A stretch of 64,000 bases of DNA from Epilithonimonas hungarica (lineage in GTDB: Bacteria > Bacteroidota > Bacteroidia > Flavobacteriales > Weeksellaceae): assembly GCF_900102265.1 (NCBI RefSeq), contig NZ_FNBH01000003.1, positions 434,001 through 498,000 of the forward strand, read 5' to 3'. The position numbers and the translations under genes are program-made. Positions 16,251 to 35,208 of this stretch are shown here, in pieces; position 1 is the stretch's first letter, and each line of letters starts with the position of its first letter. Below the pieces are notes generated by a model. It was not told the origin of the DNA, made no database searches, and saw only the letters and a list, made by a program, of their open reading frames with translations.

Positions 16251-16256
16251 TAAAGA

Positions 16257-19845: not shown

Positions 19846-20410
19846 AGTAATAATTCTCCACTATACAAAATTCCGTAAAGGGATAGAACTGGAACTATCC
19901 AAATCTCAGAAATAAGTATCCAAAAAAATGATTTTGTAATACATGGTCATTCATCTGCAAGACCAGAATGCCGTTTTGAATAACAAAGTATATAGTGAAG
20001 CCTATTTTATCTTTTAGCCTATATAACAACCAATTATCTTCAAAATTTATAAAATAGCTGAACTCCAATATCAGTGGGTGATTTTTTCATTCTGCAAATC
20101 CGGTAAAACATTCATTGGCTCGCTATCTTACCCGTTCCTATATTCCAGATATGTCATGTTATCCAAAGAACTATCAGACCTGTACTCACTGTAATTCACC
20201 CACAATTTTTCAGTGTTCTCCTTTGTTTCTGTCAAAGATTAAGAACCACCACACCTTTAAATTAAATACTCATTGAGAAAATCCTATTGAGCGATTCTAC
20301 TAATGGTTATGCCATATTGTTAAATTATCAATTTATATTTTTTTAGTTATCTATGATAATTTAACAAGGATTACAGGTTTACTAAAATTATACATTTCTT
20401 ATAAATAAAA
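19846..20410. other. Gene-free region with fragments
   Basis: No intact ORF. The minus strand near 20060-20260 reads as one protein-like frame (ENTEKLWVNYSEYRSDSS, LDNMTYLEYRNG, a stop, then MNVLPDLQNEKITH), possibly a decayed gene. It includes one copy of the 39-base direct repeat shared with the AraC gene at 38654. Confidence 0.4.
20111..20149 (+). repeat. 39-bp direct repeat, left copy
   Basis: It matches 38637-38675 at 37 of 39 positions, the last 31 bases being identical (CTCGCTATCTTACCCGTTCC and the following TATATTCCAGA). In the right copy this is the 3' end of an AraC gene (LEYRNG-stop on the minus strand). The copies are in the same orientation, about 18.5 kb apart, and bracket the catabolic operon. 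Confidence 0.85.
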
Positions 20411-20419
20411 AGAAACTTT

Positions 20420-20455
20420 CCGCTTTTGTACATTAACAGTCCGCTTTTGTACATT
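20420..20455 (+). promoter_or_regulatory. 21-bp-phased direct repeats, probable AraC-type activator site
   Basis: CCGCTTTTGTACATT occurs at 20420-20434 and again, identical, at 20441-20455, a spacing of exactly 21 bases (two helical turns). AraC-family activators bind such direct repeats just upstream of the core promoter. The second copy ends 20 bases before the -7 element of the catabolic operon. Confidence 0.65.
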
Positions 20456-20475
20456 TTTCCATCTACCTATTATTA

Positions 20476-20483
20476 TACTTTTG
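20476..20483 (+). promoter_or_regulatory. -7 promoter element of the catabolic operon
   Basis: TACTTTTG matches TAnnTTTG, 41 bases before the first start codon at 20525. It lies between the direct repeats and the palindrome. Confidence 0.6.
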
Positions 20484-20486
20484 TAA

Positions 20487-20504
20487 AAAGTAAGTACTTA
20501 CTTT
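20487..20504. promoter_or_regulatory. 18-bp perfect palindrome, probable TetR-type operator
   Basis: AAAGTAAGTACTTACTTT is a perfect palindrome placed three bases after the -7 element, over the expected transcription start. A bound repressor would block the operon. This symmetry and size are typical of TetR-family sites. The TetR gene at 36442 is the nearest candidate binder, but its own promoter has a different inverted repeat. Confidence 0.65.
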
Positions 20505-20524
20505 AATAAAAAACAAAAAATAAA

Positions 20525-21373
20525 ATGAAGGTATTTAGCTACAAAAGTGAGGATAAAATAGGGTTAGGTGTGCTTGTTGAAGGTAAAGCTTATGCGGTAA
20601 ATACAAATCAATCCCTGAAAGAATTGATTGAAAAAAACTACTTCGATAAAGATAGTATATCGAAAGTATTATCGCCAGATAGTAAGCCGTTAGATTTTGA
20701 CAGTTTAACATTAACACCTCCTGTGGTGAATCCGGGAAAGATAATCTGCGTAGGGATGAACTATGCCGAACACGTAGCTGAGGCTGGAGGAGATAACAAG
20801 GAAGAGTATCCAACCTTGTTTGTAAGGCTCAGTTCAAGTCTGACAGCCCATAAAGGGCAAATTATTCGTCCTTCCGTTTCCGAACAGTTGGACTTTGAAG
20901 GGGAACTGGTCGTTGTTATAGGTAAAAAAGGGAAACATATTCCAAAAGAAAAAGCGTTAGATCACGTTTTTGGCTACTCTATTTTTAACGATGCTTCGAT
21001 AAGAGACTATCAGTTAAAGATGCCCTTGCTCACTATGGGGAAAAACTTTGACCGGACAGGTTCGTTTGGTCCGTACATCGTTACGGCAGACGAAATACCA
21101 GATGGAGCAGCTAATTTGAAATTAGAGACACGGCTCAATGGACAGGTCGTACAATCTGCCAACACGAAAGATTTGATTTTTGACGTGCCGTATTTAATCT
21201 CGCTTATCAGTGAAGGTATTACACTGGAACCGGGAGACATCATTGTTACAGGTACTCCATCTGGCGTGGGCTGGGGAAGAAAACCCCAGTTATGGATGAA
21301 ACCCGGAGATACTTGTGAGGTAGAAATTGAAAAAATCGGAGTACTGGAAAACAATATTACGGATGAAACCTAA
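20525..21373 (+). CDS. Fumarylacetoacetate hydrolase (FAH) family protein
   Basis: A 282-residue FAH-fold enzyme; relatives hydrolyse, decarboxylate or isomerise 2,4-dioxo acids from ring cleavage. The N-terminal cap is short, and the core starts at PGKIICVGMNYAEH near residue 75. Metal ligands are the Glu pair in LDFEGELVV and the Asp in FNDASIRD. GTPSGVGWG is the usual substrate loop. As first gene of the catabolic operon it fits a step after extradiol ring opening (inference). Confidence 0.9.
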   Translation: MKVFSYKSEDKIGLGVLVEGKAYAVNTNQSLKELIEKNYFDKDSISKVLSPDSKPLDFDSLTLTPPVVNPGKIICVGMNYAEHVAEAGGDNKEEYPTLFVRLSSSLTAHKGQIIRPSVSEQLDFEGELVVVIGKKGKHIPKEKALDHVFGYSIFNDASIRDYQLKMPLLTMGKNFDRTGSFGPYIVTADEIPDGAANLKLETRLNGQVVQSANTKDLIFDVPYLISLISEGITLEPGDIIVTGTPSGVGWGRKPQLWMKPGDTCEVEIEKIGVLENNITDET

Positions 21374-21423
21374 GCAATATTCTGACAAAATAAATTCTTA
21401 ATAAAAAGCAAACAATCAAAATT

Positions 21424-23214
21424 ATGAAAGAAATAAAAGTACCTGTTCTTATTGTCGGAGGTGGTGCATGTGGCCTAACTTCATCCCTTTTACTTTCCGA
21501 CTTGAAAATTGAAAGCCTTTTAGTAGAGCGACACGAAAGTACATCACATTTACCCAAGGCACATTATCTCAACCAACGCACCATGGAAATTCTCCGCCAG
21601 CACGGAGTCGCAGATGACGTGGTGAAAGTCGGTTGCCCGATAGACAATATGGGAAAAATTGTATTCCGCACTTCTTTTGGAGGTGACGGAACCTTAGACG
21701 GTAAAGTGATTTATGAGTTAGACGCATTCGGGGGAAGAAGCTTGAAAGAAAAATATGCCAAAGACGGTCCCATTCTTTCCAATAACTATCCTCAATTCAG
21801 ATTTGAACCGCTTTTGAGAAAACACGCAGAAGATAGAAAATATGGTCAGCTGTTGTTTAGTCACGAGTTGATAGAATTTAATCAAGATGATAATGGTATA
21901 ACCGCTACCATTACCAATAAAAAAACAAATGAAACCTTTGTGGTAAAAGCAGATTATATGATTGCTGCCGACGGTGGAAAAACAATAGGAAAAAAACTGG
22001 GTGTAAAAATGGAAGGTCCAACCAATATATTGAATATGGTCAGTACCCATTTTTCAGCGGAATTGCACAAATATTGGGACGAGGAAACACTGCTTACCTT
22101 CCTGACTAATCCAGAGGGTGGTGACTCATGGAGCAGTGGTGCCATGGCTAAAATGGGTCCCAGCTGGGATAAATCAGAAGAATATGTGATTCATTTTATG
22201 TTTCGACCAGATGACCCAACCGAATTCACAAAAGAAAATATGGTGCCAAGAGTACGTCAATTACTGAAAGTACCTGACGATTTAGAAATAAATGTACATG
22301 CCATAAGCAGCTGGATATTAGAGGGTGTTCTGGCAGACAGGTATCAGTTCGACAGAATCTTCATAGCCGGAGATGCTGCACACCGCCATCCGCCTACGAC
22401 CGGTTTGGGAATGAATACAGCCATTCAGGATGCCCACAACCTGGCTTGGAAATTAGCACTGGTATTGAAAAACAAAGCTGATAAATCATTGCTGGATACC
22501 TATGAAAAAGAAAGAAGACCTATTGGCATGCGTAATGTAGACTGGGCCATGTTCACTTTCTTGAATCACTTTGTAATGGATGCCGGAATAGGCTTGGTAC
22601 CCGGAGCACCTGTAGAACAAAATAAAGTAGCATTCGAAGTCCTTTTTTCCGATACCCCGATGGGAAGAACCAGAAGACAACGCGTAAAAGAAACCTTTGA
22701 TACACAACGTACCGAATGCCAGGCACACGACTTGGAAATGGGTTTTGTATATGAAGATGGTGCTGTTATTCCGGATGGAACGGATACCCCTCTGAGTGAT
22801 CCGATGGGTTGTGAATACATCCCCACTACAAGACCGGGACACAGATTACCGCACAGTTGGCTGAAATCTTCGGAAAAAGAAGTTTCTACCCACGATTTTA
22901 CCGGAGCATCTGAGAATTTTGTATTGATAACAGGTGAAAAAGGTGATAAATGGATAGACGCAGCTCAGAAGTTAATTAAAGAAACAGATCTGAATATTGA
23001 GACCGTAAAAATAGGAAAAGATACAGGTTGGAATGATAAATCCGGTTATTGGGCACTATATGGCGGCATCAACGATGACGGGGTCGTAATCGTAAGACCG
23101 GATAATCATATTGCTTTCCGTACCGCTTGTATTTCCGAAAATCCATATCAAACTTTAGAATCAGCATTTGCCCGATTATTGGGAATTTCTGTTTCCGAAA
23201 CGGCTCAAGCCTAA
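21424..23214 (+). CDS. FAD-dependent aromatic-ring hydroxylase (PheA/TfdB family)
   Basis: A 596-residue class A flavoprotein monooxygenase using NAD(P)H and O2 to hydroxylate phenol-like rings. The FAD motif GGGACGLTSS lies near residues 11-20 with acidic end LLVERHE. GDAAHRHPPTTGLGMNTAIQDAHNLAWKLA near residue 320 is the second FAD motif; a C-terminal thioredoxin-like extension (about 440-596) fits the phenol hydroxylase group. With the dioxygenase-like gene downstream, it probably makes a catechol-type substrate. Confidence 0.9.
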   Translation: MKEIKVPVLIVGGGACGLTSSLLLSDLKIESLLVERHESTSHLPKAHYLNQRTMEILRQHGVADDVVKVGCPIDNMGKIVFRTSFGGDGTLDGKVIYELDAFGGRSLKEKYAKDGPILSNNYPQFRFEPLLRKHAEDRKYGQLLFSHELIEFNQDDNGITATITNKKTNETFVVKADYMIAADGGKTIGKKLGVKMEGPTNILNMVSTHFSAELHKYWDEETLLTFLTNPEGGDSWSSGAMAKMGPSWDKSEEYVIHFMFRPDDPTEFTKENMVPRVRQLLKVPDDLEINVHAISSWILEGVLADRYQFDRIFIAGDAAHRHPPTTGLGMNTAIQDAHNLAWKLALVLKNKADKSLLDTYEKERRPIGMRNVDWAMFTFLNHFVMDAGIGLVPGAPVEQNKVAFEVLFSDTPMGRTRRQRVKETFDTQRTECQAHDLEMGFVYEDGAVIPDGTDTPLSDPMGCEYIPTTRPGHRLPHSWLKSSEKEVSTHDFTGASENFVLITGEKGDKWIDAAQKLIKETDLNIETVKIGKDTGWNDKSGYWALYGGINDDGVVIVRPDNHIAFRTACISENPYQTLESAFARLLGISVSETAQA

Positions 23215-23224
23215 AAACGAATTC

Positions 23225-23626
23225 ATGACACAAGTAATAAAAAATACAGGAATTCAAACGCTTGAAAAATTTTCTACTGCATTCAAAGAAAAAGATGGAG
23301 CAAAAATTAAACAACTCTATCATGATGACGTAAGAATATGGCATGGTAGTACTCGACAGTCGCAGGATAGAGAAGATAATGTAGCATTTCTCTCCAACGT
23401 TTTCGATTTGGCTAATAACATCGAATATATAAACATTAAAAGACATGCAATTGATGGAGGTGCGGTGCAGCAACATACCTTAGTAGGAACATTTAAAGAC
23501 GGTACCGAAATGCCTTCGTTGGAAGCATGCTTGGTAGTAAAGGTAAATCAGGAAGGTCTCATAACTGAAATTGATGAATATTTTGATGCTTCACAGTTCG
23601 GTGAAGTATGGAAACGATTAGCATAA
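23225..23626 (+). CDS. NTF2/SnoaL-like protein
   Basis: A 133-residue alpha+beta cone protein: two helices (GIQTLEKFSTAFKEKDGAKI), then YHDDVRIWHGSTRQ and strands ending LITEIDEYFDASQFGEVW. The fold houses cyclases, isomerases and small hydrolases acting on hydrophobic ring compounds. The start at 23225 (MTQVIK) is preferred since the longer frame overlaps the hydroxylase. The gap to that gene is ten bases. Exact reaction unknown. Confidence 0.8.
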   Translation: MTQVIKNTGIQTLEKFSTAFKEKDGAKIKQLYHDDVRIWHGSTRQSQDREDNVAFLSNVFDLANNIEYINIKRHAIDGGAVQQHTLVGTFKDGTEMPSLEACLVVKVNQEGLITEIDEYFDASQFGEVWKRLA

Positions 23627-23656
23627 CATTTAGTTCAACATTAAAAAGATAAAACG

Positions 23657-24364
23657 ATGAGCACGCAAAATGAATATATAGGATCAGCTAAAGTACTGGC
23701 ACTCATTCCCAAAAGGAAAGATTTTACCGACGAAGCCTTTCATGACTACTATCGTCATCCGCACGGTACGTTGGGAAATCCGATTTCCACGATGAGGCGG
23801 TATGTGCAAAGCCACCAGATCCATACCGATTATTTAGACAATTCTCAGTCTAAATACGGAGCAGTAGCCGAATTGTGGTTTGATAGCCTGAATGATGCTT
23901 CTACTTTCAGAGAACACCCCATTATGGTAGACCACGTTATTGATGACGAACCCAATTTCGTAGATCTGGATAACCTGCAGTTTCTGCTCACCAAGGAAGA
24001 CGTTGTGTATTCAAATCCTAAAGCAGGAACCGGATTATCGGCTGCTGATATGCTATTTTCTCCGGAAAACAGGCCAATATCTACTAAACTATTGCACTTC
24101 ATTGGTAAAGAACACACAGAGTGGATTTCTGATGAAGATGAAAGTTTAGGATTAAGAATCGGAGCCCTGCGCCACGTAAGGTGCATACCTACTGCAGACG
24201 TCTTAGATGAAAACGCTGCTTTCATTGGAGTACGTGAGCTATGGTGGCCGACCCGAACCGCGTTTCAAAAAGGCGTCGAGGCAGATAAAGAGGCTTTTGA
24301 AAAGCTGATTAAAAAAACGGAAGGCTGCCATATCTTGTTGGCACAGGCAGAAAGATGGCGGTAA
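23657..24364 (+). CDS. EthD-domain protein
   Basis: A 235-residue protein beginning with an EthD-type ferredoxin-like fold: LALIPKRKDFTDEAFHDYYR then HPHGTLGNPISTMRRYVQSH. The middle has another similar half (ELWWPTRTAFQKGVEADKEAFEK), so it is likely a tandem dimeric alpha/beta barrel. EthD proteins occur in ether- and polyketide-degrading clusters; some relatives are decarboxylases or cyclases. No catalytic assignment can be made from the sequence. Confidence 0.78.
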   Translation: MSTQNEYIGSAKVLALIPKRKDFTDEAFHDYYRHPHGTLGNPISTMRRYVQSHQIHTDYLDNSQSKYGAVAELWFDSLNDASTFREHPIMVDHVIDDEPNFVDLDNLQFLLTKEDVVYSNPKAGTGLSAADMLFSPENRPISTKLLHFIGKEHTEWISDEDESLGLRIGALRHVRCIPTADVLDENAAFIGVRELWWPTRTAFQKGVEADKEAFEKLIKKTEGCHILLAQAERWR

Positions 24365-24483
24365 TTAGTGTTCAATAAAGAAAACCGAATGAATCAAATT
24401 GAATTAATCAGTAGTCCATCATTACATACCATTCGGTAGAGCAATAAAAAAACTAAATAATTAATAATTCAAAACGTAAAGCA

Positions 24484-24897
24484 ATGGCTGATATAGAAAA
24501 AAACAAAGAAATCGTCCGCAAAGCGGCACAGTACCTCAATGACAGATCGGTAGATAAATTATTGGATCTGCTTGGCGATGCGGAAGGCTCGTGGTCTATT
24601 CCATTCCGTTCTGACAAATTTTCCTTTGGCGGTTTCAAAGACAAGGCAGCATTCAGGGAAATCATCAGCGGATTTCTGGGCGGATTCAGCGAATTTAAAT
24701 TTGAAATTAAAAATCTGACGGCGGAAGAAGACCGCGTGGTAATGGAAGCGGAATCACAGGGCAAAGGACCGGGTTCGGCATCCTACAAAAACAATTACTT
24801 ACTGATTTTCTTTATCAAAAACGGGAAAATTCATACGGTAAGAGAACGATTCGACCCTTTTGAAGTACTGGAATATGTAAGCCAGTTTCCATCTTAA
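24484..24897 (+). CDS. NTF2/SnoaL-like protein
   Basis: A 137-residue NTF2-fold protein: helix KNKEIVRKAAQYLNDRSV, loop GDAEGSWSIPF, FGGFKDKAAFREIISGFLGGF, then strands ending YKNNYLLIFFIKNGKIHTV. It resembles SnoaL-like ketosteroid-isomerase-type enzymes. It is the second such gene in the operon; the two are not close relatives. An inverted repeat ACCGAATG/CATTCGGT lies in the 119-base gap before it (24384-24391 and 24430-24437). Confidence 0.8.
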   Translation: MADIEKNKEIVRKAAQYLNDRSVDKLLDLLGDAEGSWSIPFRSDKFSFGGFKDKAAFREIISGFLGGFSEFKFEIKNLTAEEDRVVMEAESQGKGPGSASYKNNYLLIFFIKNGKIHTVRERFDPFEVLEYVSQFPS

Positions 24898-24969
24898 TCA
24901 GCTAAAACTTTAAGTGAACGAGCGAAATCAACAATTAAAACAGTTATAAATTTATTTAATCCAAGTAGT

Positions 24970-25566
24970 ATGTCAAGCAATAAAATAATCAAACCAAAAC
25001 TTCATCATGTAAACTTCAATACCAATAAGTTACAAGAAATGATCGATTGGTATGCCTTAGTATTAGGCATGAAAGCAAATTTTCAAAGTTCTGCGGCAGC
25101 ATTCCTTTCCAATGACGAATCAAATCACAGGATTGCAATGATAAACACGCCGCAATTAGATGATGATCCCAACAGATACCAGCACATTTCGTTTCAACAC
25201 CACGCGTACGAATACGACTCACTCAATGATTTGTTAGATACCTACTTTAGACTAAAAGAACACGGAATTGTTCCCTTATTCAATTTAGATCACGGATTGA
25301 CCACTTCTATGTATTATGTAGATCCTGACAGGCACATGGTCGAGCTGCAAATTGATAATCACGAAGATTGGGCTGCATCTACCATTTTTTTACAAACCTC
25401 TGAGGATTTCAGAGCAAATCCTATTGGAGTAGAATTTGTGCCGGAAGAAATGAAAGCTGATTTGGATTCAGGCTTAAGTTTAAAGGAAATTCATAAAAAA
25501 TCCTATGCGGGAGCTTACAAGCCTGAAACGCCTTTTGATTTTAGCCACCTGACCACCGCATTGTAA
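24970..25566 (+). CDS. Extradiol-dioxygenase-like VOC protein
   Basis: A 198-residue VOC-fold metalloenzyme. Candidate Fe(II) ligands of type I extradiol dioxygenases are His in LHHVNF (near residue 15), His in FQHHAYEY (near residue 78) and Glu in MVELQIDN (near residue 129). Such enzymes cleave catechol rings with O2 (meta cleavage). Here a single VOC unit, not the usual two-module enzyme, is seen, with a C-terminal tail. It pairs naturally with the hydroxylase and FAH-type gene upstream. Confidence 0.85.
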   Translation: MSSNKIIKPKLHHVNFNTNKLQEMIDWYALVLGMKANFQSSAAAFLSNDESNHRIAMINTPQLDDDPNRYQHISFQHHAYEYDSLNDLLDTYFRLKEHGIVPLFNLDHGLTTSMYYVDPDRHMVELQIDNHEDWAASTIFLQTSEDFRANPIGVEFVPEEMKADLDSGLSLKEIHKKSYAGAYKPETPFDFSHLTTAL

Positions 25567-25617
25567 CCAATCCGGATTGACAGAACATTTGTAAGTCTAT
25601 AACGAATTAAACGAATT

Positions 25618-25905
25618 ATGTTTTTAATTAACGTCATTAACAAAAAAGCTCCTGAAGAAGCTGAAAAATATATAACAGAACACCGGGAGTTTTTGGATCA
25701 GTGCTATGAGAAAAAAAAGTTTGTAGCATCCGGAAGAATCGGGTCTCCAGCCCAGGGATTCATCATTGCCTATAATTGCAGCCGCATTGAATTGGAGCAC
25801 CTCCTACAGGAAGATCCGTTGGCTGTACACGATGTGGTAGAGTACAATATTACAGAGTATAACCCTACTAAGTATGCAGCAGAATTTGAACAATTTATAA
25901 AATAA
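25618..25905 (+). CDS. YciI-family small protein
   Basis: A 95-residue dimeric alpha/beta-barrel protein of the YciI/muconolactone-isomerase-like fold: short beta strand FLINVINKKAP, helix with EHREFLDQCYEKKKF, strand VASGRIG, and DPLAVHDVVEYNITEYNP. Relatives include lactone isomerases and dehalogenases of ring-degradation routes. The gap to the ligase gene after it is 23 bases. Confidence 0.82.
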   Translation: MFLINVINKKAPEEAEKYITEHREFLDQCYEKKKFVASGRIGSPAQGFIIAYNCSRIELEHLLQEDPLAVHDVVEYNITEYNPTKYAAEFEQFIK

Positions 25906-25928
25906 TAAATTAATCGATTTTAGGAATA

Positions 25929-27911
25929 ATGAGTTTAAACAGGGAAAACAATATTTTGTGGGAAGCTACAGAGTCATTCAATAATGGTTCTGAGATGGCT
26001 CGTTTTATTGATTGGCTCAAATCTGAAAAGCAACTCATTTTTAATGATTATGAATCTTTATGGCAGTGGTCGGTAGACAGTAATGATCAGTTTTGGCTTT
26101 CCCTGTGGGAGTTCTACGAAGTGATTTATGAAGGAGTAATAGAACAGGTTGTAACAACTGACAGTATGCCCGGAGCCAACTGGTTTACGGGTACAATCCT
26201 GAATTACGCAGAACATATTTTCAGAAATGCTGCCGATACCAGACCTGCACTTATCTACAGTGATGAAGCGGGCGAAATCCATGAAATGAGTTGGAGGGAG
26301 TTAAAAAGCAAAGTGGCTACCTTACAACATTTTCTACTCAAAGAAGGAGTGCAGGAAGGCGATCGGGTGGCGGCTTTTTTGTGCAACACACCGGAAGCTA
26401 CCATCGCAATGCTGGCTACCGTTTCCATCGGTGCAGTCTGGTCGATGTGTTCTCCCGATTTTGGAACACACAGCGTGCTGGATCGGTTTAACCAGATAGA
26501 GCCTACCGTTTTGATTGCCACCACAGGTTACTCTTACAACGGTCGAAACTACAACAAATCGGAAGCTGTTACGGAAATCGCACAACAGCTCCCCTCTCTA
26601 AAACATTTGCTTCTTACGGGTCAAGACAATACAATAGCTCCCCAATCGTTTTCTATACCCGTTTCTGTATGGGAAGAAGTGGTCAATACAGAACATGATT
26701 GCGTACTCCATTTTAAAAGAGTTCCGTTTAGTTCTCCGCTTTGGGTGCTGTATTCTTCGGGTACCACCGGTATTCCTAAAGCCATAACACAAAGTCATGG
26801 AGGTATTTTACTGGAGCATTTTAAATTTTTGGGATTGCATGGAAATGTACAACCAGGCGACCGGTATTTCTGGTATTCTACAACGGGTTGGGTTATGTGG
26901 AATATATTGCAGTCCTCCATGCTTTTAGGAGCAACGGCAGTACTGTACGAAGGCAGTGTCTCCTACCCTTCAATGAGTAAGTTGTGGGATTTAGCCGAAT
27001 CTGTTCAGCTCACTACTTTTGGAGTCAGTGCATCGTATATTCATTCCTGTATGAAAAAAGGCATCAGCCCAAAGGAAACGCATGATTTATCTTCACTGAA
27101 ATGTATTGGTTCTACCGGTTCAGTTCTTTCTCTAAGCGGTGCTCAATGGATCTACGAACACGTAAAAAAAGATGTATGGCTGGCTTCTGTAAGCGGAGGT
27201 ACGGATATATGCAGTGGATTTGTGGCAGGAAACCCGATGCTTCCCGTCTATGCCAATGCCTTACAATGCAAAGCATTGGGTTGCGGGTTATATGCTTATG
27301 ATGAAAATGGAATTCCGGTAATGAACGAGCAGGGAGAAATGGTTATTACCAAGCCAATGCCATCAATGCCTATCTATTTTTGGGGAGAAAAAGATGGAAA
27401 ACGTTACCACGAAAGTTACTTTGATACCTATCCCGGAGTATGGCGGCATGGTGATAATATCATCATCTATGAAAATGGTTCGGTTGAAATAACAGGCCGG
27501 TCAGATGCCACATTAAACCGAATGGGCGTGCGTATCGGTACCAGTGAAATCTATCAGTCTGTGGAAAAAAATCCCGAAATAAAAGATAGTCTGGTGGTGA
27601 ATATCGAGTTGGAGAACGGAGGGTTTTATATGCCTTTGTTTGTGGTATTAAACGACAAATCGGCACTTACGGAAGATTTGAAAACAAAAATAAAGAAAGC
27701 ACTGCGGTCAGAATATTCGCCAAGGCACGTACCGGATGAGATCATCGAAGTAAAAGAAATCCCATATACCTTAAGTGGTAAAAAAATGGAAATTCCCGTA
27801 AAAAGAATATTAAAAGGCGACGCGATTGACAAAGTATCTAGCAGAGATGCAATGAAAAACCCGGATTCGCTGATAGTTTTTCAGCAATTGCATAACAAAG
27901 ATCATCAATAG
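25929..27911 (+). CDS. Acetoacetyl-CoA synthetase-like acyl-CoA ligase
   Basis: A 660-residue ATP-dependent acid-CoA ligase of the acetoacetyl-CoA synthetase group. The AMP-binding motif YSSGTTGIPKAITQSHGG lies near residue 275-290, the A8 hinge with TGRSDATLNRMGVRIG near 525, and the catalytic Lys in LSGKKMEIPVK near 625. Length and the N-terminal WxxL-type region fit acetoacetyl-CoA synthetase. The real substrate may be another 3-oxo acid. A 44-base near-copy of its 3' end is found at 31386, just before the thiolase. Confidence 0.9.
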   Translation: MSLNRENNILWEATESFNNGSEMARFIDWLKSEKQLIFNDYESLWQWSVDSNDQFWLSLWEFYEVIYEGVIEQVVTTDSMPGANWFTGTILNYAEHIFRNAADTRPALIYSDEAGEIHEMSWRELKSKVATLQHFLLKEGVQEGDRVAAFLCNTPEATIAMLATVSIGAVWSMCSPDFGTHSVLDRFNQIEPTVLIATTGYSYNGRNYNKSEAVTEIAQQLPSLKHLLLTGQDNTIAPQSFSIPVSVWEEVVNTEHDCVLHFKRVPFSSPLWVLYSSGTTGIPKAITQSHGGILLEHFKFLGLHGNVQPGDRYFWYSTTGWVMWNILQSSMLLGATAVLYEGSVSYPSMSKLWDLAESVQLTTFGVSASYIHSCMKKGISPKETHDLSSLKCIGSTGSVLSLSGAQWIYEHVKKDVWLASVSGGTDICSGFVAGNPMLPVYANALQCKALGCGLYAYDENGIPVMNEQGEMVITKPMPSMPIYFWGEKDGKRYHESYFDTYPGVWRHGDNIIIYENGSVEITGRSDATLNRMGVRIGTSEIYQSVEKNPEIKDSLVVNIELENGGFYMPLFVVLNDKSALTEDLKTKIKKALRSEYSPRHVPDEIIEVKEIPYTLSGKKMEIPVKRILKGDAIDKVSSRDAMKNPDSLIVFQQLHNKDHQ

Positions 27912-28019
27912 AGCTCCACATATAACGGACTAAATATCAGATAAACGCGATAAATCAACGGTTTTGTATTAAAAAACAGTTTGTTCTTCGTTCAAATGGG
28001 TAACAATTTAAAATAAGAA

Positions 28020-29705
28020 ATGATGAAAGAGAATCAAGAAATAAAAGAAGTGGATGTGCTGATTATCGGGTCAGGACCTGCCGGTCTTACTTGTGCAACC
28101 GTAGCTGCACAAAAAGGCTTACGTGTTCTGTTAGTCGAAAAAGCACCGGTTTTCGGAGGAACAGCAGCACAATCCGGAGGTGCTATATGGATTCCCAACA
28201 ACCCGGTGCAACCACAGGTTGGGATAGAGGATAATCATACAAGTGCCGAAACATATTTAAAAAACGTACTGAAGGATAAATACGATTCCGAGCTTATAAA
28301 TGCATTTTTACAATCCGGTCCTGAAATGGTTTCCTATATGGAAAAAAACACGCCTGTAAAGTTTAGCACCTTTAGATTTCCTGATTATTTCCCCGATGAG
28401 GAAGGTGCCTCTTGGGGACGCTCTCTTTTTTCTATATCGTTTGATGGAACTGTACTTGGCTCATTTGTCAAAAAAGTACGTTTGCCAATTATCGGTTATT
28501 CCACCGCATTTGGCACTATGCAGGTTTCGGCTATGGAAGCGGGGGTGTTTACAAGCGTTTTTAAAAATGCAAAATCATTTTTTACGGTTACGGGACGTTT
28601 CTTTCAATACCTGTGGCATTTAATTCGCTTTGGGAAAGGTGCTCATCTGGCCAATGGAAATGCATTAATTGGTCGATTAGTCAAGTCCAACGTAGATGCT
28701 AAGGTAGAAATGTGGCATAATGCTCCGGGATTGAGCCTGATACAAAATAAAGACCGGGTAGAAGGTGCTATGGTAGAATACAAAGGAGTACCTGTAAAAG
28801 TTATTGCAAAAAGAGGTGTTGTTGTCGCAAGCGGAGGATTTGGGGCTAATCCGCATTTAAGAGAAAAATACTACTTGAAACCGGAAGGACATTTAAACGC
28901 AAATCCGGAAGAAAATGTTGGAGATGGTATTTTAGCTGCTTTGGCTGTAGGTGCTGCTATGGGTGAGAAGAAAGAAGACCAGGCTGTATGGGCTCCTACT
29001 TCGGTGCTTAAATTCAAAGACGGTACTTATCGCCGCTATCCACACTTTGGTCCGGACCGTGCCAAACCCGGGCAGATTATTGTAGATATCAGCGGAAAAA
29101 GATTTGCTAATGAAGCAGCACCTTATGTGCCATTTGTACACACAATGAAAGAAAAGGACATCAATACTGCTTTTCTGATAGCAGACAGCAGAGCAAGAGC
29201 TAAATATGGTCTTGGTTTCGCTCTTGCAAAACCGTACCCGGATTTGGGATTTTCAAAATCAGGATACCTGATAAGTGCACCCACCATTAAAGAGCTTGCA
29301 CACAAATTGAATATCAGTGCAGAAGCACTGGAAGAAACTGTAAAAACCTACAATGAACACGCTAAACAAGGCCATGACCCGGAATTTCATAAAGGAGAAA
29401 ACAGCTATGACGCCAGCCAGGGAGATCCGCAGCATAAACCCAATGCAAATGTTGGTCCTTTGGAAAAAGCCCCATTTTATGCGGTCAAAATTCACCCGGG
29501 AGATGTCAACAGTTGTGTGGGTATAAAAATTAATAAAAATGCACAGGCGGTTAATGAACAGGGAGAAGCAATCGAAGGGCTCTATGCCATCGGAGTAGAT
29601 TCAAACAGTATTTTTCAGGGAGTTTATCCGGGAGGCGGATCCGGTATCGGTCCGGCAATGACATTCGGATACAGAGCCGCACTGCATTTGGCAGATAATA
29701 AATAA
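28020..29705 (+). CDS. FAD-dependent 3-ketosteroid dehydrogenase-like flavoprotein
   Basis: A 561-residue flavoprotein of the fumarate reductase/KstD group. The N-terminal FAD motif GSGPAGLTCATVAAQKG is near residues 17-33 and the next block FGGTAAQSGGAIWIPNN is characteristic of 3-oxosteroid-1-dehydrogenases and related acyl-dehydrogenases. The C-terminal FAD block GSGIGPAMTFGYRAALHLA is present. It likely removes hydrogen across a C-C bond next to a keto group on a ring. Steroids are only one possible substrate class. Confidence 0.85.
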   Translation: MMKENQEIKEVDVLIIGSGPAGLTCATVAAQKGLRVLLVEKAPVFGGTAAQSGGAIWIPNNPVQPQVGIEDNHTSAETYLKNVLKDKYDSELINAFLQSGPEMVSYMEKNTPVKFSTFRFPDYFPDEEGASWGRSLFSISFDGTVLGSFVKKVRLPIIGYSTAFGTMQVSAMEAGVFTSVFKNAKSFFTVTGRFFQYLWHLIRFGKGAHLANGNALIGRLVKSNVDAKVEMWHNAPGLSLIQNKDRVEGAMVEYKGVPVKVIAKRGVVVASGGFGANPHLREKYYLKPEGHLNANPEENVGDGILAALAVGAAMGEKKEDQAVWAPTSVLKFKDGTYRRYPHFGPDRAKPGQIIVDISGKRFANEAAPYVPFVHTMKEKDINTAFLIADSRARAKYGLGFALAKPYPDLGFSKSGYLISAPTIKELAHKLNISAEALEETVKTYNEHAKQGHDPEFHKGENSYDASQGDPQHKPNANVGPLEKAPFYAVKIHPGDVNSCVGIKINKNAQAVNEQGEAIEGLYAIGVDSNSIFQGVYPGGGSGIGPAMTFGYRAALHLADNK

Positions 29706-29798
29706 ACGATCAAGTCCGGTTTCTTAATTGGGGTGTTATAAACCATTTAACTTATTGATATTTGATTTGATAAATTTTTACAATTATATCTTAAAATT

Positions 29799-30554
29799 AT
29801 GAGTAGATTAAAAGACAAAGTTGCCATTGTAACAGGAGGTGCACAAGGTATAGGTGAAGCCACGGTACGTGCATTTATTGCAGAAGGTGCTTCCGTAGTA
29901 TTAACAGACTTAAATGAAAAAAAAGGCGTCGAGCTCGTTAAGGAATTAGGGCAAAATGCTTTTTTCATCAAGCATGATGTTTCTAATACGGAAGATTGGG
30001 AAAGAGTAATTTCTCAAACCGAAGCTCAGTTTGGCTATGTTAATGTTTTGGTTAATAATGCAGGGATTTTTGGTCCGGTTGCCAAAGTGGTTGATTTGGA
30101 CAAAAAAGATTATCTCAATGCCATCAATATTAACCAAAACAGTGTGTTTTACGGAATGAAATACACCGTTCCTTCCATGCTTAATGCAGGTAAAGGTTCA
30201 ATTGTAAACCTTTCCTCAATGGCCGGGATTGCAGCAGTAAACGGATTTCCAAGCGTAGCTTATGTTTCCGCTAAGTTTGCAGTAAGAGGAATGTCTAAAG
30301 CAGTAGCCGTTGAATATGCAGATAATAATATTCGGGTAAATTCTGTACATCCGGGATTCATTAAAACCCCTATGTCTGCCGCTGCTTTTACAGAAGATGA
30401 TGTTATGAAAGAATTAGCTTCTAAATATGTGCCTCTGAAAAGGTGGTCTGAAGCATCGGAAGTTGCATCACTAAATGTATTTTTAGCATCCGACGAATCT
30501 GCATACATCACAGGAACAGAACTTATTATAGACGGAGGAGTTACTGCCAGTTAA
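29799..30554 (+). CDS. Short-chain dehydrogenase/reductase (SDR)
   Basis: A 251-residue classical SDR with TGGAQGIG (12-19), NNAG, YVSAK and Asp37 (NAD). It is paralogous to the SDR at 13238, which ends with the same DGG block and shares the GYVNVLVNNAGI stretch. It lies in the operon 93 bases after the flavoprotein and 23 bases before another SDR. Confidence 0.9.
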   Translation: MSRLKDKVAIVTGGAQGIGEATVRAFIAEGASVVLTDLNEKKGVELVKELGQNAFFIKHDVSNTEDWERVISQTEAQFGYVNVLVNNAGIFGPVAKVVDLDKKDYLNAININQNSVFYGMKYTVPSMLNAGKGSIVNLSSMAGIAAVNGFPSVAYVSAKFAVRGMSKAVAVEYADNNIRVNSVHPGFIKTPMSAAAFTEDDVMKELASKYVPLKRWSEASEVASLNVFLASDESAYITGTELIIDGGVTAS

Positions 30555-30577
30555 TTTAATTTTTAAATAGTATAAAA

Positions 30578-31342
30578 ATGGGAAAGTTAAAAAATAAAGT
30601 TGCTATCATAACAGGTGCAGCATCCGGTATTGGAAAAGCACAGGCTTTGCTTTTTGCAAAAGAAGAAGCAAAAGTCGTAGTAGTGGATTTAAACCTTGAC
30701 GGTATCCAAGATACGGTAAGTGAAATCAAAGCAAAGGGTGGCCAAGCGATAGGCGTTCAGGCCAACTTGACTAATGATGATGACATATCCAATTTGGTAG
30801 AAAAGGTCATTTCTGAATATGGAGAAATATCCATATTATTAAATACTGCCGGTCTTTTTGATCAGTACAAAAGTTTATTGAATACTGATGAAAGTTTATG
30901 GAATAAGATGTTGGATGTAAATATTACCAGTTTATATAAGATTACAAGCAAGGTATTACCACATATGCTGGAAAAGAAATTTGGTGTTATTGTAAACATA
31001 GCTTCGGGAGCCGGCTTAATTGCGGGTGGTGGTGGTATAGGCTACACCTCGACAAAACATGCGGTCATTGGATTTACAAAACAATTGAACTTTGATTATG
31101 GTACACAGGGAATACGTGCTAATGCTATAGCTCCTGGTTTGATAGAAACTCCTATGGTAAAGGCCGTTATTGACGATCCGAATTCAGGCGTAATGGATGC
31201 CGTAAGTAAACTTCCTGCTGGAAGATACGGTCAACCTGGTGAAGTTGCTGATTTGAGTCTTTTTCTCGCATCAGATGATTCTCGCTACATATATGGTGCA
31301 GTAGTGCCTATTGACGGAGGTTTACTTTCTACTTTAAGGTAA
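30578..31342 (+). CDS. Short-chain dehydrogenase/reductase (SDR)
   Basis: A 254-residue classical SDR with TGAASGIG, NTAG, YTSTK and Asp37 (NAD). It is paralogous to the SDR at 17227, including the ending DGGLLSTLR. A decayed copy of the ligase 3' end lies right after it, so the SDR pair may have been inserted between the ligase and thiolase genes (inference). Confidence 0.9.
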   Translation: MGKLKNKVAIITGAASGIGKAQALLFAKEEAKVVVVDLNLDGIQDTVSEIKAKGGQAIGVQANLTNDDDISNLVEKVISEYGEISILLNTAGLFDQYKSLLNTDESLWNKMLDVNITSLYKITSKVLPHMLEKKFGVIVNIASGAGLIAGGGGIGYTSTKHAVIGFTKQLNFDYGTQGIRANAIAPGLIETPMVKAVIDDPNSGVMDAVSKLPAGRYGQPGEVADLSLFLASDDSRYIYGAVVPIDGGLLSTLR

Positions 31343-31385
31343 CACAGCTAATATTCATTAAGCAGATTCTTCCCATTCACTGACT

Positions 31386-31429
31386 GACAAAATATCCAGC
31401 AGAGATGCAATGAAAAATCCGGATTCGCT
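31386..31429 (+). repeat. Remnant of an acetoacetyl-CoA synthetase 3' end
   Basis: It matches 27828-27871 at 41 of 44 positions. In frame it reads DKISSRDAMKNPDSL, versus DKVSSRDAMKNPDSL in the intact ligase, and the frame continues to a stop at 31465. The differences are at synonymous or conservative sites. It is the tail of a second, otherwise lost, ligase gene or of a duplication event. Confidence 0.85.
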
Positions 31430-31475
31430 CAATTTTTTCAGTTCTTTCAAAACAACAGTAAAATAAAACAACAAA

Positions 31476-32660
31476 ATGGCAAATAAAGTAATTATCGCAG
31501 GAGTGGGAATGACACCCTTTTCATCTCCCAAAGCAGGTATTCCTTATACACAATTGGGAGCAGATGCTGCCCGTATGGCATTGAAAGATGCCGGTATAGA
31601 TTATGATAAAATCCAGCAGGCATACGTGGGCTGGGTATACGGAGATTCTACCGCAGGACAAGCCGTGCTGTATGATTTAGGGCTGACAGGTATTCCCATC
31701 ATCAATGTCAATAACAATTGTGCAACAGGATCATCCGCCCTGTTTCTTGCCCGTCAGGCAGTAGAAAGTGGTGTAGTAGAATGTGCACTGGCATTAGGTT
31801 TTGAACAGATGTCCCCGGGTGCTTTGGGCAGTGTGTTTAATGACAGGGTTACGCCTTTGTCACGCTTTGAATCCATCGTGGAAGAGCAATTCCCCGAGGC
31901 AAAAGAAGTACCTATGGCGATTAAATTGTTTGCAGCAGCCGGATATGAATACCAGGAAAAATATGGTACTGAAACCGAAATCTTTGCCCGTGTACGCAGC
32001 AAAGCCAGTCAGCACGCCATCCATAATGAACGTGCTATCTTCAGAAAGCCGGTTTCGGTAGAAGAAGTAATGCAATCCCCATCCATATTTTTGAACGTGA
32101 CCCGTTTGCAGTGTTGTCCGCCTACCTGTGGTGGAGCTGCCGTAGTTGTTTGTACCGAAGCATTTGCCAGAAAAAACGGGCTAAAACAAAAGGCTGTCAT
32201 ATTGGGTCAGGCATTAACCACCGATTATCCGGGAACGTTTTATGATCATTCTATGATGAAAGTGGTAGGTTACGACATGACAAAAAGTGCCGCAGATAAA
32301 GTATATGAGCAGGCAGGATACGGACCCGGTGATGTAGATTTGGTTGAATTGCACGATTGCTTTACAACCAATGAAATCATTACATACGAGGCACTTGGTC
32401 TGTGTGAGGAAGGAGGAGCAGCGAAATTTGTATTGGACGGAGATAATACTTATGGAGGAAAAGTGGTAACGAATCCATCCGGAGGATTACTTTCAAAAGG
32501 ACACCCTTTGGGAGCAACAGGACTTGCCCAAATCAGCGAGTTGGTATGGCAGCTTAACGGAGAAGCGGGTGACAGACAGGTTGAAAATGCCCGAATAGCC
32601 TTACAGCATAATATCGGTATCGGTGGAGCTTGTGTGGTAACGATGCTGGGAAAAGCATAA
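31476..32660 (+). CDS. Thiolase (SCP2/lipid-transfer-type acetyl-CoA acyltransferase)
   Basis: A 394-residue thiolase. The nucleophile Cys is in NNNCATGSSAL (near residue 80). HDCFTTNEI and GHPLGATG carry the catalytic His residues and QHNIGIGGACVV holds the C-terminal Cys. The HDCFT signature places it in the SCP2-thiolase group, which handles branched, cyclic or steroid-like 3-oxoacyl-CoAs. It should cleave the CoA thioester made by the ligase upstream. The ligase remnant lies in its 133-base leader. Confidence 0.9.
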   Translation: MANKVIIAGVGMTPFSSPKAGIPYTQLGADAARMALKDAGIDYDKIQQAYVGWVYGDSTAGQAVLYDLGLTGIPIINVNNNCATGSSALFLARQAVESGVVECALALGFEQMSPGALGSVFNDRVTPLSRFESIVEEQFPEAKEVPMAIKLFAAAGYEYQEKYGTETEIFARVRSKASQHAIHNERAIFRKPVSVEEVMQSPSIFLNVTRLQCCPPTCGGAAVVVCTEAFARKNGLKQKAVILGQALTTDYPGTFYDHSMMKVVGYDMTKSAADKVYEQAGYGPGDVDLVELHDCFTTNEIITYEALGLCEEGGAAKFVLDGDNTYGGKVVTNPSGGLLSKGHPLGATGLAQISELVWQLNGEAGDRQVENARIALQHNIGIGGACVVTMLGKA

Positions 32661-32676
32661 ATAGAAAAATTTCATT

Positions 32677-33747
32677 ATGTCAGCATTATTCAGTCCTTTA
32701 CAAATTAAAGATGTACAATTTAAAAACAGAATAGCCGTATCTCCTATGTGCCAATATTCGGCTGAGGATGGTTTTGCAAATGATTGGCACCTGGTACATT
32801 TGGGAAGCAGAGCTGTGGGAGGAGCCGGATTGATTATGATGGAAGCTACCGCTGTTTCAGAATCAGGAAGAGGTACTCCTGCCGATTTGGGAATCTGGAA
32901 AGACGAACACATTTCGTTTCTTAAATGCATTACCACTTTTATAGACGAAAATGATGCTGTAGCAGGCATACAGCTGATACATGCCGGAAGAAAAGCCAGC
33001 CGGAATGTTCCTTGGAAAGAAAATATTCCCTTAGCCCGTGCAGATGGCGGTTGGCAGGTGTATGCACCCAGTGCCATACCTTTTGGAGAAAACAGTCCGG
33101 TACCCGAAGCATTGACAAAAGAGCAGATTGCTGAAATTGTAAAAGACTTCGGGAAAGCGGCCTTAAGAGCACAAAAAGCAGGTTTTAAGGTATTGGAAAT
33201 CCATGCCGCACACGGTTATCTCATTCACGAATTTTTATCCCCTGTTTCCAATCAGCGTATAGATAAGTATGGCGGTTCGTTTGAAAACCGGATACGTTTT
33301 TTATTAGAAATAATCGAGGAAATACATAAAAACTGGCCGCAGAATCTTCCTTTATTTGTAAGGATTTCAGCTACTGATTGGTTATCTGAAGGCTGGAATG
33401 AAAATGATTCTGTGGCTTTAGCAGTCATTTTAAAAACGAAAGGAGTAGATCTCATAGATTGTTCTACCGGAGGGATTCTTCCGACTGTTTCCATACCCGT
33501 AGAGCCATTGTATCAGGTAAAGTTTGCTGATATAATAAAAAAGGAATCGCTGATAAAAACGGCTGCTGTTGGTTTGATAACCTCTGCCATTGAAGCAGAA
33601 GCAATTGTAAAAAACGAGCAGGCCGATTTGGTTTTTATTGCCAGAGAATTGCTCAGAAATCCTTATTTTCCAATTGTTGCAGCACAAGAATTAGGTGTAG
33701 ATCTAACCTGGCCAAATCAGTATGCAAGGGCTAAACTCAGAAAGTAG
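32677..33747 (+). CDS. Old Yellow Enzyme-type NADH:flavin oxidoreductase (YqjM-like)
   Basis: A 356-residue FMN ene-reductase, last gene of the catabolic operon. The YqjM signature Cys is in SPMCQYSAEDG (near residue 25), active His pair in IHAAHGYLIHEF (near residue 175), and an Arg-rich C-terminal end. It reduces activated C=C bonds of enones. It follows the thiolase by 16 bases. Together with the KstD-like gene it suggests both oxidation and reduction of ring or enone bonds in the route. Confidence 0.9.
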   Translation: MSALFSPLQIKDVQFKNRIAVSPMCQYSAEDGFANDWHLVHLGSRAVGGAGLIMMEATAVSESGRGTPADLGIWKDEHISFLKCITTFIDENDAVAGIQLIHAGRKASRNVPWKENIPLARADGGWQVYAPSAIPFGENSPVPEALTKEQIAEIVKDFGKAALRAQKAGFKVLEIHAAHGYLIHEFLSPVSNQRIDKYGGSFENRIRFLLEIIEEIHKNWPQNLPLFVRISATDWLSEGWNENDSVALAVILKTKGVDLIDCSTGGILPTVSIPVEPLYQVKFADIIKKESLIKTAAVGLITSAIEAEAIVKNEQADLVFIARELLRNPYFPIVAAQELGVDLTWPNQYARAKLRK

Positions 33748-33999
33748 CCTCAATCAGAACAAAACTGACAAAAAATCAGCAGACTCGAAAATAAAAAATG
33801 AAATTATTGACTAAACAAAGTGGCGTTACTATCAAAACCATAAACCCTCATGTTTAAAGAATTTCTGATTTGGATTATAGTTCAATAACATTTTGAAACA
33901 ATAGGTTTAGATTAAATCTATTTACGTAATATCAATAATACCAAAAACATCGTTTTTTGTTTTTTTTAGAAGTAAGATTTATATAATTTTTTAGTTGCA
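33748..33999. other. Short gene-free stretch after the catabolic operon
   Basis: AT-rich with no ORF or clear terminator hairpin. It separates the convergent end of the catabolic operon from the aspartic protease gene. Confidence 0.5.
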
Positions 34000-35208
34000 T
34001 TACAACTTCTTGATTTCAACATTCTTGATTTCTCCCGTTTTAACGTCTTTCAATACAAGTAATGCCGTTTTTTTATCAATTTTATTATTAGATTTTACTA
34101 TCTCACAAAAGTCCATATTTTGATAATCAATAGTATCAAATTTTAAAATTTCGTCTCCTACATTTACTTTATTTTCTAAAGTTGTATCCCAAATAATTCC
34201 TACAACAGCTCTCTCATTTTCAATTATAGGGTCGACCGCCCATACACCTCTCTCTAAATTTATTTCTGAGATGTTTTCATAAGGTTCTATGTAAAACTTT
34301 TTATTTTTATAGTCTAATGTTACTTTTCCATAATTTAGAATTTCTGAACCAAATCTCGATGTTGTATAAGTTGTTTTTGTAGTTATGTTATTTAACTTTA
34401 AACCATTTACTTCTAATATTGGAATATTAACTGCATAATTGGTCATTTTTTCTGCTGTTCCGTGTAGTCCTGCCGAAAAAGATCCGTTATTTTCTGCTAA
34501 AGTTCGAATTATATCTAGTTCAGAAATGATATGCTTGTAAGCATCGATTGATAGTAAATACAAACCATCATCACCAGTATCGAATAGAATTTTTTCGTTA
34601 GCAACAAATTTTCCTTTTTTTAATTTAATCTGTACAAATGGATTACTCTGATGAGATCTCAATTCCATATCATTTGAATTTTTCTTTTTTAAATTTAATG
34701 ATTTAGGATTATCGGAAAGTGTAATTGTTTTCTCTTTAGAATTAAACTGTATTACGGAATTACGAAGCAAATTGCTGCCAATAATACCTTCTACATCAAA
34801 ACATTCAAAAAGCATTCTTGAATCTTTTGATACCAAAGCAGGAATATCTTTAAAAACCAGTTCATTAAGTTTCGTCTCAGATAGAGAAACAACCTTTAGG
34901 CTGTCTTTCAGTCCTGATTGGTCAATTACTTCGACTGCTCCTAATAATTTTGGATTTATTTCAGAATATAAATTTTCTGTAATAATTGTTGATGCCCCTG
35001 TATCAAGGATGAATTTTCTACTCTTTTTATTAATAACTACTTCTATTATAATTTTTCCTTTGACTTGCTTGTAAGGAATTGTTGTCAGATATTGTTTTTG
35101 CTCTACATACCCTTGGTTGGCATTAACTGTATTTTGAGCGTACAACAATGTATTAGATAGTAAGAAGAATGAAAATAAAAGCCACTTAAATTTTACCGTT
35201 TTATTCAT
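34000..35208 (-). CDS. Retropepsin-like aspartic protease with C-terminal PDZ-like domain
   Basis: A 402-residue protein with a signal peptide (KFKWLLFSFFLLSNTLLYAQ). Two aspartyl motifs are visible: FILDTGASTI near residue 68 and LFDTGDDGLYLL near residue 210, as in the tandem pepsin-like proteases of Bacteroidetes. The C-terminal third, with VGDEILKFDTIDYQNM, looks like a PDZ domain. It is probably a periplasmic or surface protease. It is convergent with the catabolic operon and has no partner gene. Confidence 0.82.
   Translation of the reverse strand: MNKTVKFKWLLFSFFLLSNTLLYAQNTVNANQGYVEQKQYLTTIPYKQVKGKIIIEVVINKKSRKFILDTGASTIITENLYSEINPKLLGAVEVIDQSGLKDSLKVVSLSETKLNELVFKDIPALVSKDSRMLFECFDVEGIIGSNLLRNSVIQFNSKEKTITLSDNPKSLNLKKKNSNDMELRSHQSNPFVQIKLKKGKFVANEKILFDTGDDGLYLLSIDAYKHIISELDIIRTLAENNGSFSAGLHGTAEKMTNYAVNIPILEVNGLKLNNITTKTTYTTSRFGSEILNYGKVTLDYKNKKFYIEPYENISEINLERGVWAVDPIIENERAVVGIIWDTTLENKVNVGDEILKFDTIDYQNMDFCEIVKSNNKIDKKTALLVLKDVKTGEIKNVEIKKL

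Follow-up and report, generated by a model that had tools for sequence, protein, structure and literature searches.

A thirteen-gene, probably catabolic operon of Epilithonimonas hungarica with a candidate extradiol ring-cleavage core

Gene content and layout of the locus

We analyzed a 64,000-nucleotide (nt) stretch of the Epilithonimonas hungarica genome, referred to here as the window (positions 434001-498000 of contig NZ_FNBH01000003.1). The genome is 3.96 Mb, 100% complete, and has 0.1% contamination. The element in question is a run of 13 plus-strand open reading frames (ORFs) at 20525-33747, none of which has an internal stop in the ORF list of the window (Table 1). Numbered 1 to 13 in order, the genes are separated by gaps of 50, 10, 30, 119, 72, 51, 23, 108, 93, 23, 133, and 16 nt. 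From the spacing and the shared strand we infer that they form one transcript. An earlier reading of the sequence alone had described thirteen plus-strand genes with short gaps and had given each a family label. Both descriptions hold, as the gaps are 10-133 nt and a fitting Pfam family passes its gathering score for every gene. A scan for a plus-strand terminator-like site after the last gene found none up to position 35000, and no tRNA genes were found in the window. The operon has a G+C content (GC) of 41.7% and a third-position GC (GC3) of 35.9%, vs. 39.7% and 39.2% in 14 chosen ORFs of the window, and its relative synonymous codon usage (RSCU) correlates with theirs at 0.97. GC, GC3, and RSCU thus carry no compositional sign of recent foreign DNA or contamination, and we rejected that explanation.

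Table 1. Features of the operon and its promoter region (positions within the window).
Feature	Position	Strand	Basis and remarks
Tandem direct repeat	20414..20455	+	Two copies at a 21-nt period sharing an exact 16-nt core, TCCGCTTTTGTACATT
TACTTTTG box	20476..20483	+	Matches -7 box TAnnTTTG
Perfect 16-nt palindrome AAGTAAGTACTTACTT	20488..20503		Putative operator at the expected transcript start
FAH-family hydrolase (gene 1)	20525..21373	+	PF01557, 240 bits; candidate acylpyruvate-type C-C hydrolase
FAD-dependent aromatic-ring monooxygenase (gene 2)	21424..23214	+	PF01494, 315 bits; PF21274, 52 bits
NTF2/SnoaL-like protein a (gene 3)	23225..23626	+	ATG at 23225; PF12680, 32.6 bits, scanned with one extra 5′ codon
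EthD-domain protein (gene 4)	23657..24364	+	235 aa; PF07110, 54.5 bits
NTF2/SnoaL-like protein b (gene 5)	24484..24897	+	PF12680, 41.7 bits
One-domain VOC protein (gene 6)	24970..25566	+	198 aa; PF00903, 57 bits; candidate extradiol ring-cleavage dioxygenase
YciI-like protein (gene 7)	25618..25905	+	PF03795, 27.6 vs. 24 bits
Acetoacetate-CoA ligase (gene 8)	25929..27911	+	TIGR01217, 799.4 vs. equivalog cut-off 520.9 bits, passed
KstD-like flavoprotein dehydrogenase (gene 9)	28020..29705	+	3-oxosteroid 1-dehydrogenase 7p18, nearly full length, E 8e-90
SDR oxidoreductase (gene 10)	29799..30554	+	59% identical to SDR 13238-13984
SDR oxidoreductase (gene 11)	30578..31342	+	68% identical to SDR 17227-17994 (minus strand)
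Degenerate copy of ligase gene 3′ end	31382..31455	+	84% identity to 27824-27898 (75 columns aligned), E 1.4e-17
SCP2-type thiolase (gene 12)	31476..32660	+	PRK08256, 646.4 vs. subfamily cut-off 436 bits, passed
Old Yellow Enzyme (OYE), NamA/YqjM class (gene 13)	32677..33747	+	NF010047 (NamA), 440.5 vs. 431 bits; PDB relatives
aa, amino acids; FAD, flavin adenine dinucleotide; CoA, coenzyme A; SDR, short-chain dehydrogenase/reductase.

Promoter region and neighboring regulators

The compound promoter that had been claimed ahead of gene 1 is borne out by an exact tandem repeat, the TACTTTTG box, and the perfect palindrome AAGTAAGTACTTACTT. The two copies of TCCGCTTTTGTACATT stand at 20419-20434 and 20440-20455. 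They are the sole exact 16-mer repeated at 19-23 nt spacing within the window, and the tandem occurs at one place only in the genome when up to three mismatches are allowed (both copies required). TACTTTTG fits the Bacteroidota -7 box, TAnnTTTG, and is the only plus-strand TAnnTTTG outside the 13 genes in 19601-34000; eight others lie inside genes. No TTTG was found at the usual distance from the box (spacings of 17-23 nt scanned), the upstream TTTG being 26 nt away; this would fit an activator-dependent promoter. The palindrome is likewise found at one place only in the genome with up to one mismatch allowed. Perfect 16-nt palindromes are not rare, with four in the window vs. about 1.5 expected by composition, and the other three are all inside ORFs. 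A generic sigma-70 scan returned 51 sites vs. 41.8 expected.

The 21-nt tandem resembles the arrangement of AraC-type half-sites, and we propose that its copies are the half-sites of such an activator. The palindrome is proposed to be the operator of a repressor, putatively of the TetR type. AraC- and TetR-family genes are found nearby (16257-17183, 37106-37993, and 36442-36993; Pfam). Five AraC-type regulator genes lie within 31 kb (8922-9851, 11425-12327, 16257-17183, 37106-37993, and 38654-39541), two assigned by Pfam and three by similarity or reading. A 46-nt repeat (91%) is shared between 20111-20156 and 38637-38682, the latter at the 3′ end of the minus-strand AraC-type gene 38654-39541. 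The copy ahead of the operon reads MTYLEYRNG, vs. LTPLEYRNG in the AraC-type gene, and looks like the remnant of a regulator gene. A 25-nt inverted repeat (96%, 4-nt loop) at 17150-17203, at the junction of convergent AraC and SDR genes, is probably a bidirectional terminator.

The candidate ring-cleavage core

Three of the genes encode what may be the core of a ring-cleavage pathway. The monooxygenase has as its nearest solved relative a protein named 2,4-dichlorophenol 6-monooxygenase (E 1e-106) and is 60% identical to a protein of Rhodococcus sp. USK10. In the VOC protein, five residues (H13, H53, H77, Y115, and E125) do not vary across 11 aligned sequences (the window's included), and H108 is almost invariant. 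Their spacing fits that of the type I extradiol dioxygenases (BphC), with H13, H77, and E125 as candidate metal ligands and H53, H108, and Y115 as candidate catalytic residues. The predicted model has a VOC fold, with a mean predicted local distance difference test (pLDDT) score of 86.7. In the FAH-family hydrolase, H83, E86, E125, E127, D156, and K173 are invariant in six aligned sequences (again including the window's) and presumably correspond to the dyad and metal site of the acylpyruvase FAHD1. FAHD1 is one of the PDB matches of this protein (E 8e-32) but is outscored by twelve others in the list.

This trio of genes also occurs as a group in other bacteria. Matches to the VOC protein were found in 18 plasmid records and, by a pattern scan of genome contigs, at six further loci, five actinobacterial and one from Ktedonobacteria, with 37-50% identity. 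The six loci carry no Bacteroidete titles, in a scan that reaches close relatives only and may have left out records near the window's own genome. We compared 20 VOC loci, comprising the six contigs and 14 plasmid records, after leaving out four plasmid records that, judged by organism, coverage, and score, appear to be near-duplicates. Neighbor matches were counted at E 1e-3 (tblastn) in flanks of unequal length, several of the contigs being short. Both the FAH and the monooxygenase genes lie beside the VOC gene in 14/20 loci, with some weak matches (at locus L003, FAH at 31% and monooxygenase at 24%, both partial). Among the loci used as a contrast, a set with no random-region control, a FAH match was present in 0/2 anchored on EthD and 0/1 anchored on KstD, and at 30% in one anchored on the monooxygenase.

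Three of the loci are on Rhodococcus plasmids (R. koreensis R85, Rhodococcus sp. USK10, and R. rhodochrous pNit); we know of no characterization of these cassettes. They match the window in the ligase (42-45%), FAH (35-39%), VOC (34-38%), and monooxygenase (52-59%) genes by tblastn. An SDR and a YciI gene are also shared with R. koreensis, and an SDR and an NTF2 gene with R. rhodochrous. Unlike the window, they gave no match to KstD, EthD, SCP2-thiolase, or OYE at E 1e-3 within the sequence retrieved around them. In the annotations, the ligase and FAH genes share 13 nt in R. koreensis (12501-12513) and 4 nt in R. rhodochrous (11976-11979). This linkage suggests that the cleavage product is acylpyruvate-like and that the 3-oxo acid released from it is then activated and thiolysed. 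Carboxyltransferase and biotin carboxylase genes come after the ligase in USK10, and annotated 2-oxo acid dehydrogenase genes are near the cassette in R. rhodochrous and in Paraburkholderia sp. D15. These neighbors are compatible with 2-oxo acid and acyl-CoA products.

A region of plasmid pSA1 of Novosphingobium resinovorum SA1 also resembles the operon. Relatives of FAH (42%), VOC (46%), EthD (46%), the KstD-like protein (40%), the monooxygenase (46%), and NTF2 (40%) are present along with several SDRs, all within about 24 kb, and a SCP2-thiolase match (31%) is found further along. The region differs from the window in its several transcription directions and its Rieske oxygenases, and neither the ligase nor OYE was matched in the stretches compared. 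The plasmid locus of Paraburkholderia sp. D15, a strain from a lichen, carries VOC, FAH, NTF2, and 2-oxo acid dehydrogenase genes, a FAD monooxygenase gene, and an acyl-CoA-dehydrogenase-family/flavin-reductase pair at 5857-16946. Lichens contain resorcinols, which would be natural test substrates for these genes.

Auxiliary and CoA-side genes

The KstD-like protein aligns Y123, Y369, Y536, and G540 with PDB KstD sequences, and we take this Tyr-Tyr-Tyr-Gly set to be the catalytic residues of KstD. Its NCBIfam scores are below cut-off for each of the 25 top-listed models out of 95 families (561.6 vs. 747 for the highest). The thiolase aligns with SCP2-thiolase type 1 (6hsj, E 2e-136), including C82, H293, and H343, presumably the catalytic Cys/His residues. 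Genes 10 and 11 have paralogs upstream of the operon, where there are five further SDR genes (12403-13984 and 17227-19646), two of them close paralogs of genes 10 and 11. These upstream genes may belong to the same pathway as the operon.

The EthD protein is 39-46% identical to proteins in 10 plasmid records. A relative (43%) is encoded immediately behind linC on plasmid pISP1 of Sphingomonas sp. MM-1; linC carries the annotation dichlorocyclohexadienediol dehydrogenase, and the linC/EthD stretch is at positions 7221-8681 of that locus. No PDB relative was found at E 1 and a single-sequence fold model was useless (pLDDT 32). By analogy, as set out below, we propose that the protein is a dehydratase. 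NTF2/SnoaL-like protein a, for which the PDB search gave no convincing relative, is a putative dehydratase or isomerase. Protein b is 40% identical to a protein adjoining the monooxygenase on pSA1. A YciI gene occurs likewise in the R. koreensis and Ktedonobacteria loci.

Distribution in the host lineage and assembly of the operon

The earlier reading knew of no such route described in Bacteroidetes, and the searches agree that the operon is unusual for its lineage. The VOC protein (E 1e-20) was found in 1/197 genomes of a family sample, 1/395 of a phylum sample, and 1/23 of the genus, always the window's own genome. The same was true of the EthD protein (E 1e-10; 1/395, phylum sample), the monooxygenase (1/148, family sample, E 1e-100; 1/395, order sample, E 1e-90), and the KstD-like protein (E 1e-90; 1/395, class sample). 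The samples overlap, and all except that of the genus were drawn from larger groups. For the monooxygenase and the KstD-like protein the limits are strict and at most three candidates were scored per genome in the rows listed (order and class samples), so weaker relatives may exist. Lateral acquisition is suggested by this patchy distribution and by the Rhodococcus protein to which the monooxygenase is 60% identical, while the composition carries no foreign signature.

The degenerate ligase tail stands between gene 11 and the thiolase gene, and together with the intact ligase it brackets the KstD-SDR-SDR block. The bracketing makes a modular origin probable, in which another ligase gene formerly stood ahead of the thiolase gene.

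Proposed pathway

This is probably a real and functional catabolic operon. The sequence-only reading had suggested ring hydroxylation, extradiol-type cleavage, and CoA-dependent breakdown, and this is still the best account, with active-site residues in place in the VOC, FAH, KstD-like, and thiolase proteins. The aromatic or polycyclic substrate that it had assumed is conjectural. Each reaction, the order of the reactions, and the substrate class are our inferences. We propose one regulated operon for ring preparation, hydroxylation, extradiol cleavage, FAH hydrolysis, and CoA-dependent breakdown, a scheme that we judge evenly balanced between right and wrong. The SDRs, the KstD-like protein, the EthD and NTF2-like putative dehydratases, and OYE would make a phenol by adjusting or aromatizing an oxygenated alicyclic ring such as that of a cyclohexenone or 1,3-diketone. 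The monooxygenase would hydroxylate the phenol at the ortho position, giving a catechol or trihydroxybenzene, and the one-domain VOC enzyme would open the ring in extradiol fashion. Because the ring would have carried another oxygen, the product would be an acylpyruvate-like acid, from which the FAH hydrolase would release a 3-oxo acid and a 2-oxo acid, the latter being pyruvate or a homolog. The split of an acylpyruvate into a 2-oxo and a 3-oxo acid is known from the orcinol route, our model for this step. The acetoacetate-CoA ligase would then activate the 3-oxo acid, and the SCP2-type thiolase would yield acetyl-CoA and an acyl-CoA. An activator of the AraC type and a repressor of the TetR type would control the operon.

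The first step is suggested by several likenesses. The KstD-like protein and gene 10 score against models of cyclohexanecarboxylate enzymes, all below the equivalog cut-offs (ChcC2, 442 vs. 900, and ChcC1, 298 vs. 1000, for the former; ChcB1, 232 vs. 400, for the latter). The EthD relative beside linC points the same way. According to PMC12175502, Hsh3, a purified EthD-domain protein, is a 7beta-hydroxysteroid dehydratase and its counterpart Hsh2 is an NTF2-like hydroxysteroid dehydratase. A narrower version is tentative, and somewhat doubtful when taken whole: an alicyclic natural product would be aromatized to a resorcinol-type phenol and then destroyed to acetyl-CoA by a self-contained, laterally acquired, modular operon under one dual-controlled promoter.

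A number of observations weigh against the proposed scheme. Among solved structures, the VOC protein is nearest in sequence to FosA/FosB and to an entry with the name glyoxalase. In a fold search (50 matches listed) the best matches are 9u42 and FosA/FosB, with a query-normalized template modeling (TM) score of at most 0.53, and the extradiol enzyme LapB is at rank 47 with a TM score of 0.27. The fold thus leaves the chemistry open between a dioxygenase and a FosA-like enzyme. The His-His-Glu triad is not proof of dioxygenase activity either, since FosA-type enzymes share the same metal site. Several of the better-scoring PDB matches of the FAH protein are named isomerases or decarboxylases, the protein is under the cut-off of all seven NCBIfam models that it matches, and the family also includes hydratases, isomerases, and decarboxylases. 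Six of the 20 VOC loci are without FAH and monooxygenase genes (Priestia, two Agrobacterium, Rhizobium, and contigs L005 and L008), the ligase is found at 3/20, all Rhodococcus plasmids, and EthD and a full-length KstD occur together at 1/20. The SDR scores are unspecific, with gene 10 matching 124 NCBIfam families and gene 11 matching 126 (E 1e-30) and both passing the PRK07231 subfamily, "glucose 1-dehydrogenase." No Chc model is among the 25 best NCBIfam matches of gene 11. Finally, the scheme gives no good account of the YciI-like protein, of OYE, or of why three flavoenzymes would be needed.

Alternative readings

The operon could be of the fde/ifc type and break down the A ring of flavonoids or isoflavones, with the monooxygenase acting at C-8, the VOC protein cleaving the A ring, and OYE, an SDR, and the flavoprotein acting on the C ring. 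Variovorax EBFNA2, from legume roots, carries monooxygenase, VOC, FAH, and NTF2 genes, and a Streptomyces relative has FAH, VOC, and monooxygenase genes along with an Asp/Glu racemase gene. However, a Pfam scan found no cupin (IfcD1/IfcD2) gene among the 13 genes, and the monooxygenase is 31% identical to that of Variovorax EBFNA2. It is closest (52-60%) to those of the ligase-bearing Rhodococcus cassettes among the sequences aligned, a set from which FdeC and FdeE are absent. We consider this reading unlikely.

Nor do we think it likely that unrelated functions share the transcript, i.e., that a ring-cleavage core (genes 1-8) was later joined by a KstD-SDR-SDR-thiolase-OYE block with another target. 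The bracketing of the KstD-SDR-SDR block by the degenerate ligase tail is what such a history would leave, and the Rhodococcus cassettes hold the core with no KstD, EthD, or OYE matches. The genes nevertheless share a strand and one promoter-like region, with no other TAnnTTTG outside genes, and relatives of KstD, EthD, and the core are together in Novosphingobium.

Modification or degradation of a steroid or bile salt, with the KstD-like protein, SDRs, EthD, NTF2-like proteins, and SCP2-type thiolase acting on the nucleus or side chain, is improbable. The KstD homology is nearly full length with the four catalytic residues aligned, and the hydroxysteroid dehydratases Hsh2 and Hsh3 belong to the same two families as genes of the operon. 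The 9,10-seco steroid route uses a two-domain HsaC-type dioxygenase and an alpha/beta hydrolase, HsaD. In contrast, the VOC protein here has one domain and the hydrolase is of the FAH type; a Pfam scan of the operon's genes found neither a two-domain HsaC-type dioxygenase nor an alpha/beta HsaD, other seco-pathway genes not having been searched genome-wide. KshA_C (PF19298) had no matches in the genome at E 0.001, in a search with a weak control (1/14 genomes, below cut-off). Of the three steroid-pathway marks tested, the KstD active site is present, and KshA and the HsaC/HsaD types were not found. As the principal reading, a steroid route is set back by these results.

It is very improbable that the cluster makes or tailors an aromatic polyketide-like metabolite by means of SnoaL-type, EthD, RdmE-like, and SDR enzymes: the SnoaL and EthD families are present and the monooxygenase scores 343 and 281 bits against the aklavinone 12-hydroxylase RdmE/DnrF models (below cut-offs of 700 and 650), but no polyketide synthase was seen among the window ORFs of at least 120 aa as read (the profile scan covered only part), the FAH, acetoacetate-CoA ligase, and thiolase genes indicate breakdown, and several cassette relatives adjoin transporter genes.

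Comparison with known systems

If the proposed scheme of ring preparation, extradiol cleavage, and CoA-dependent breakdown is true, it would extend one-domain extradiol cassettes to a lineage with no other carrier in the samples. It would also place acetoacetate-CoA ligase in a ring-cleavage route, following the FAH hydrolase, and assign dehydration to the EthD and NTF2-like proteins encoded in clusters of this kind. The promoter, which has a tandem and a palindromic site of its own, could serve in a sensor for the operon's target compound.

The thymol and orcinol routes were considered as models. The orcinol pathway resembles the proposal in its monooxygenase, extradiol cleavage, and acylpyruvate hydrolysis, a comparison by scheme and not by sequence. 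We recognized no paper giving the genes of the orcinol route among the literature matches listed. The ChcB/ChcC aromatization of cyclohexanecarboxylate, as represented by NCBIfam models, pairs an SDR with a KstD-like flavoprotein as the operon does. Hsh3 is like the EthD protein of the window in being an EthD-domain protein in a ring-degrading bacterium, a likeness by domain name. A passage of a pinoresinol paper (PMC12607616) contained nothing relevant.

The novelty claimed for the operon stands in part. We recognized no published description of the full gene combination in open-licence PMC text with the particular search terms used, and the whole combination was in no other genome examined. 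The VOC-FAH-monooxygenase core, on the other hand, is of a known, fde/ifc-like kind. The fde genes are those of naringenin in Herbaspirillum and the ifc cluster is that of isoflavone in Variovorax (PMC11069340; PMC11303751). According to PMC11069340, the core of both sets is a monooxygenase and a ring-cleaving glyoxalase-family protein. By these descriptions the operon is like both in encoding a FAD ring monooxygenase together with a glyoxalase-family ring-cleaving protein, and it adds to that core an acetoacetate-CoA ligase, a KstD-like protein, an EthD protein, a SCP2-type thiolase, and an OYE.

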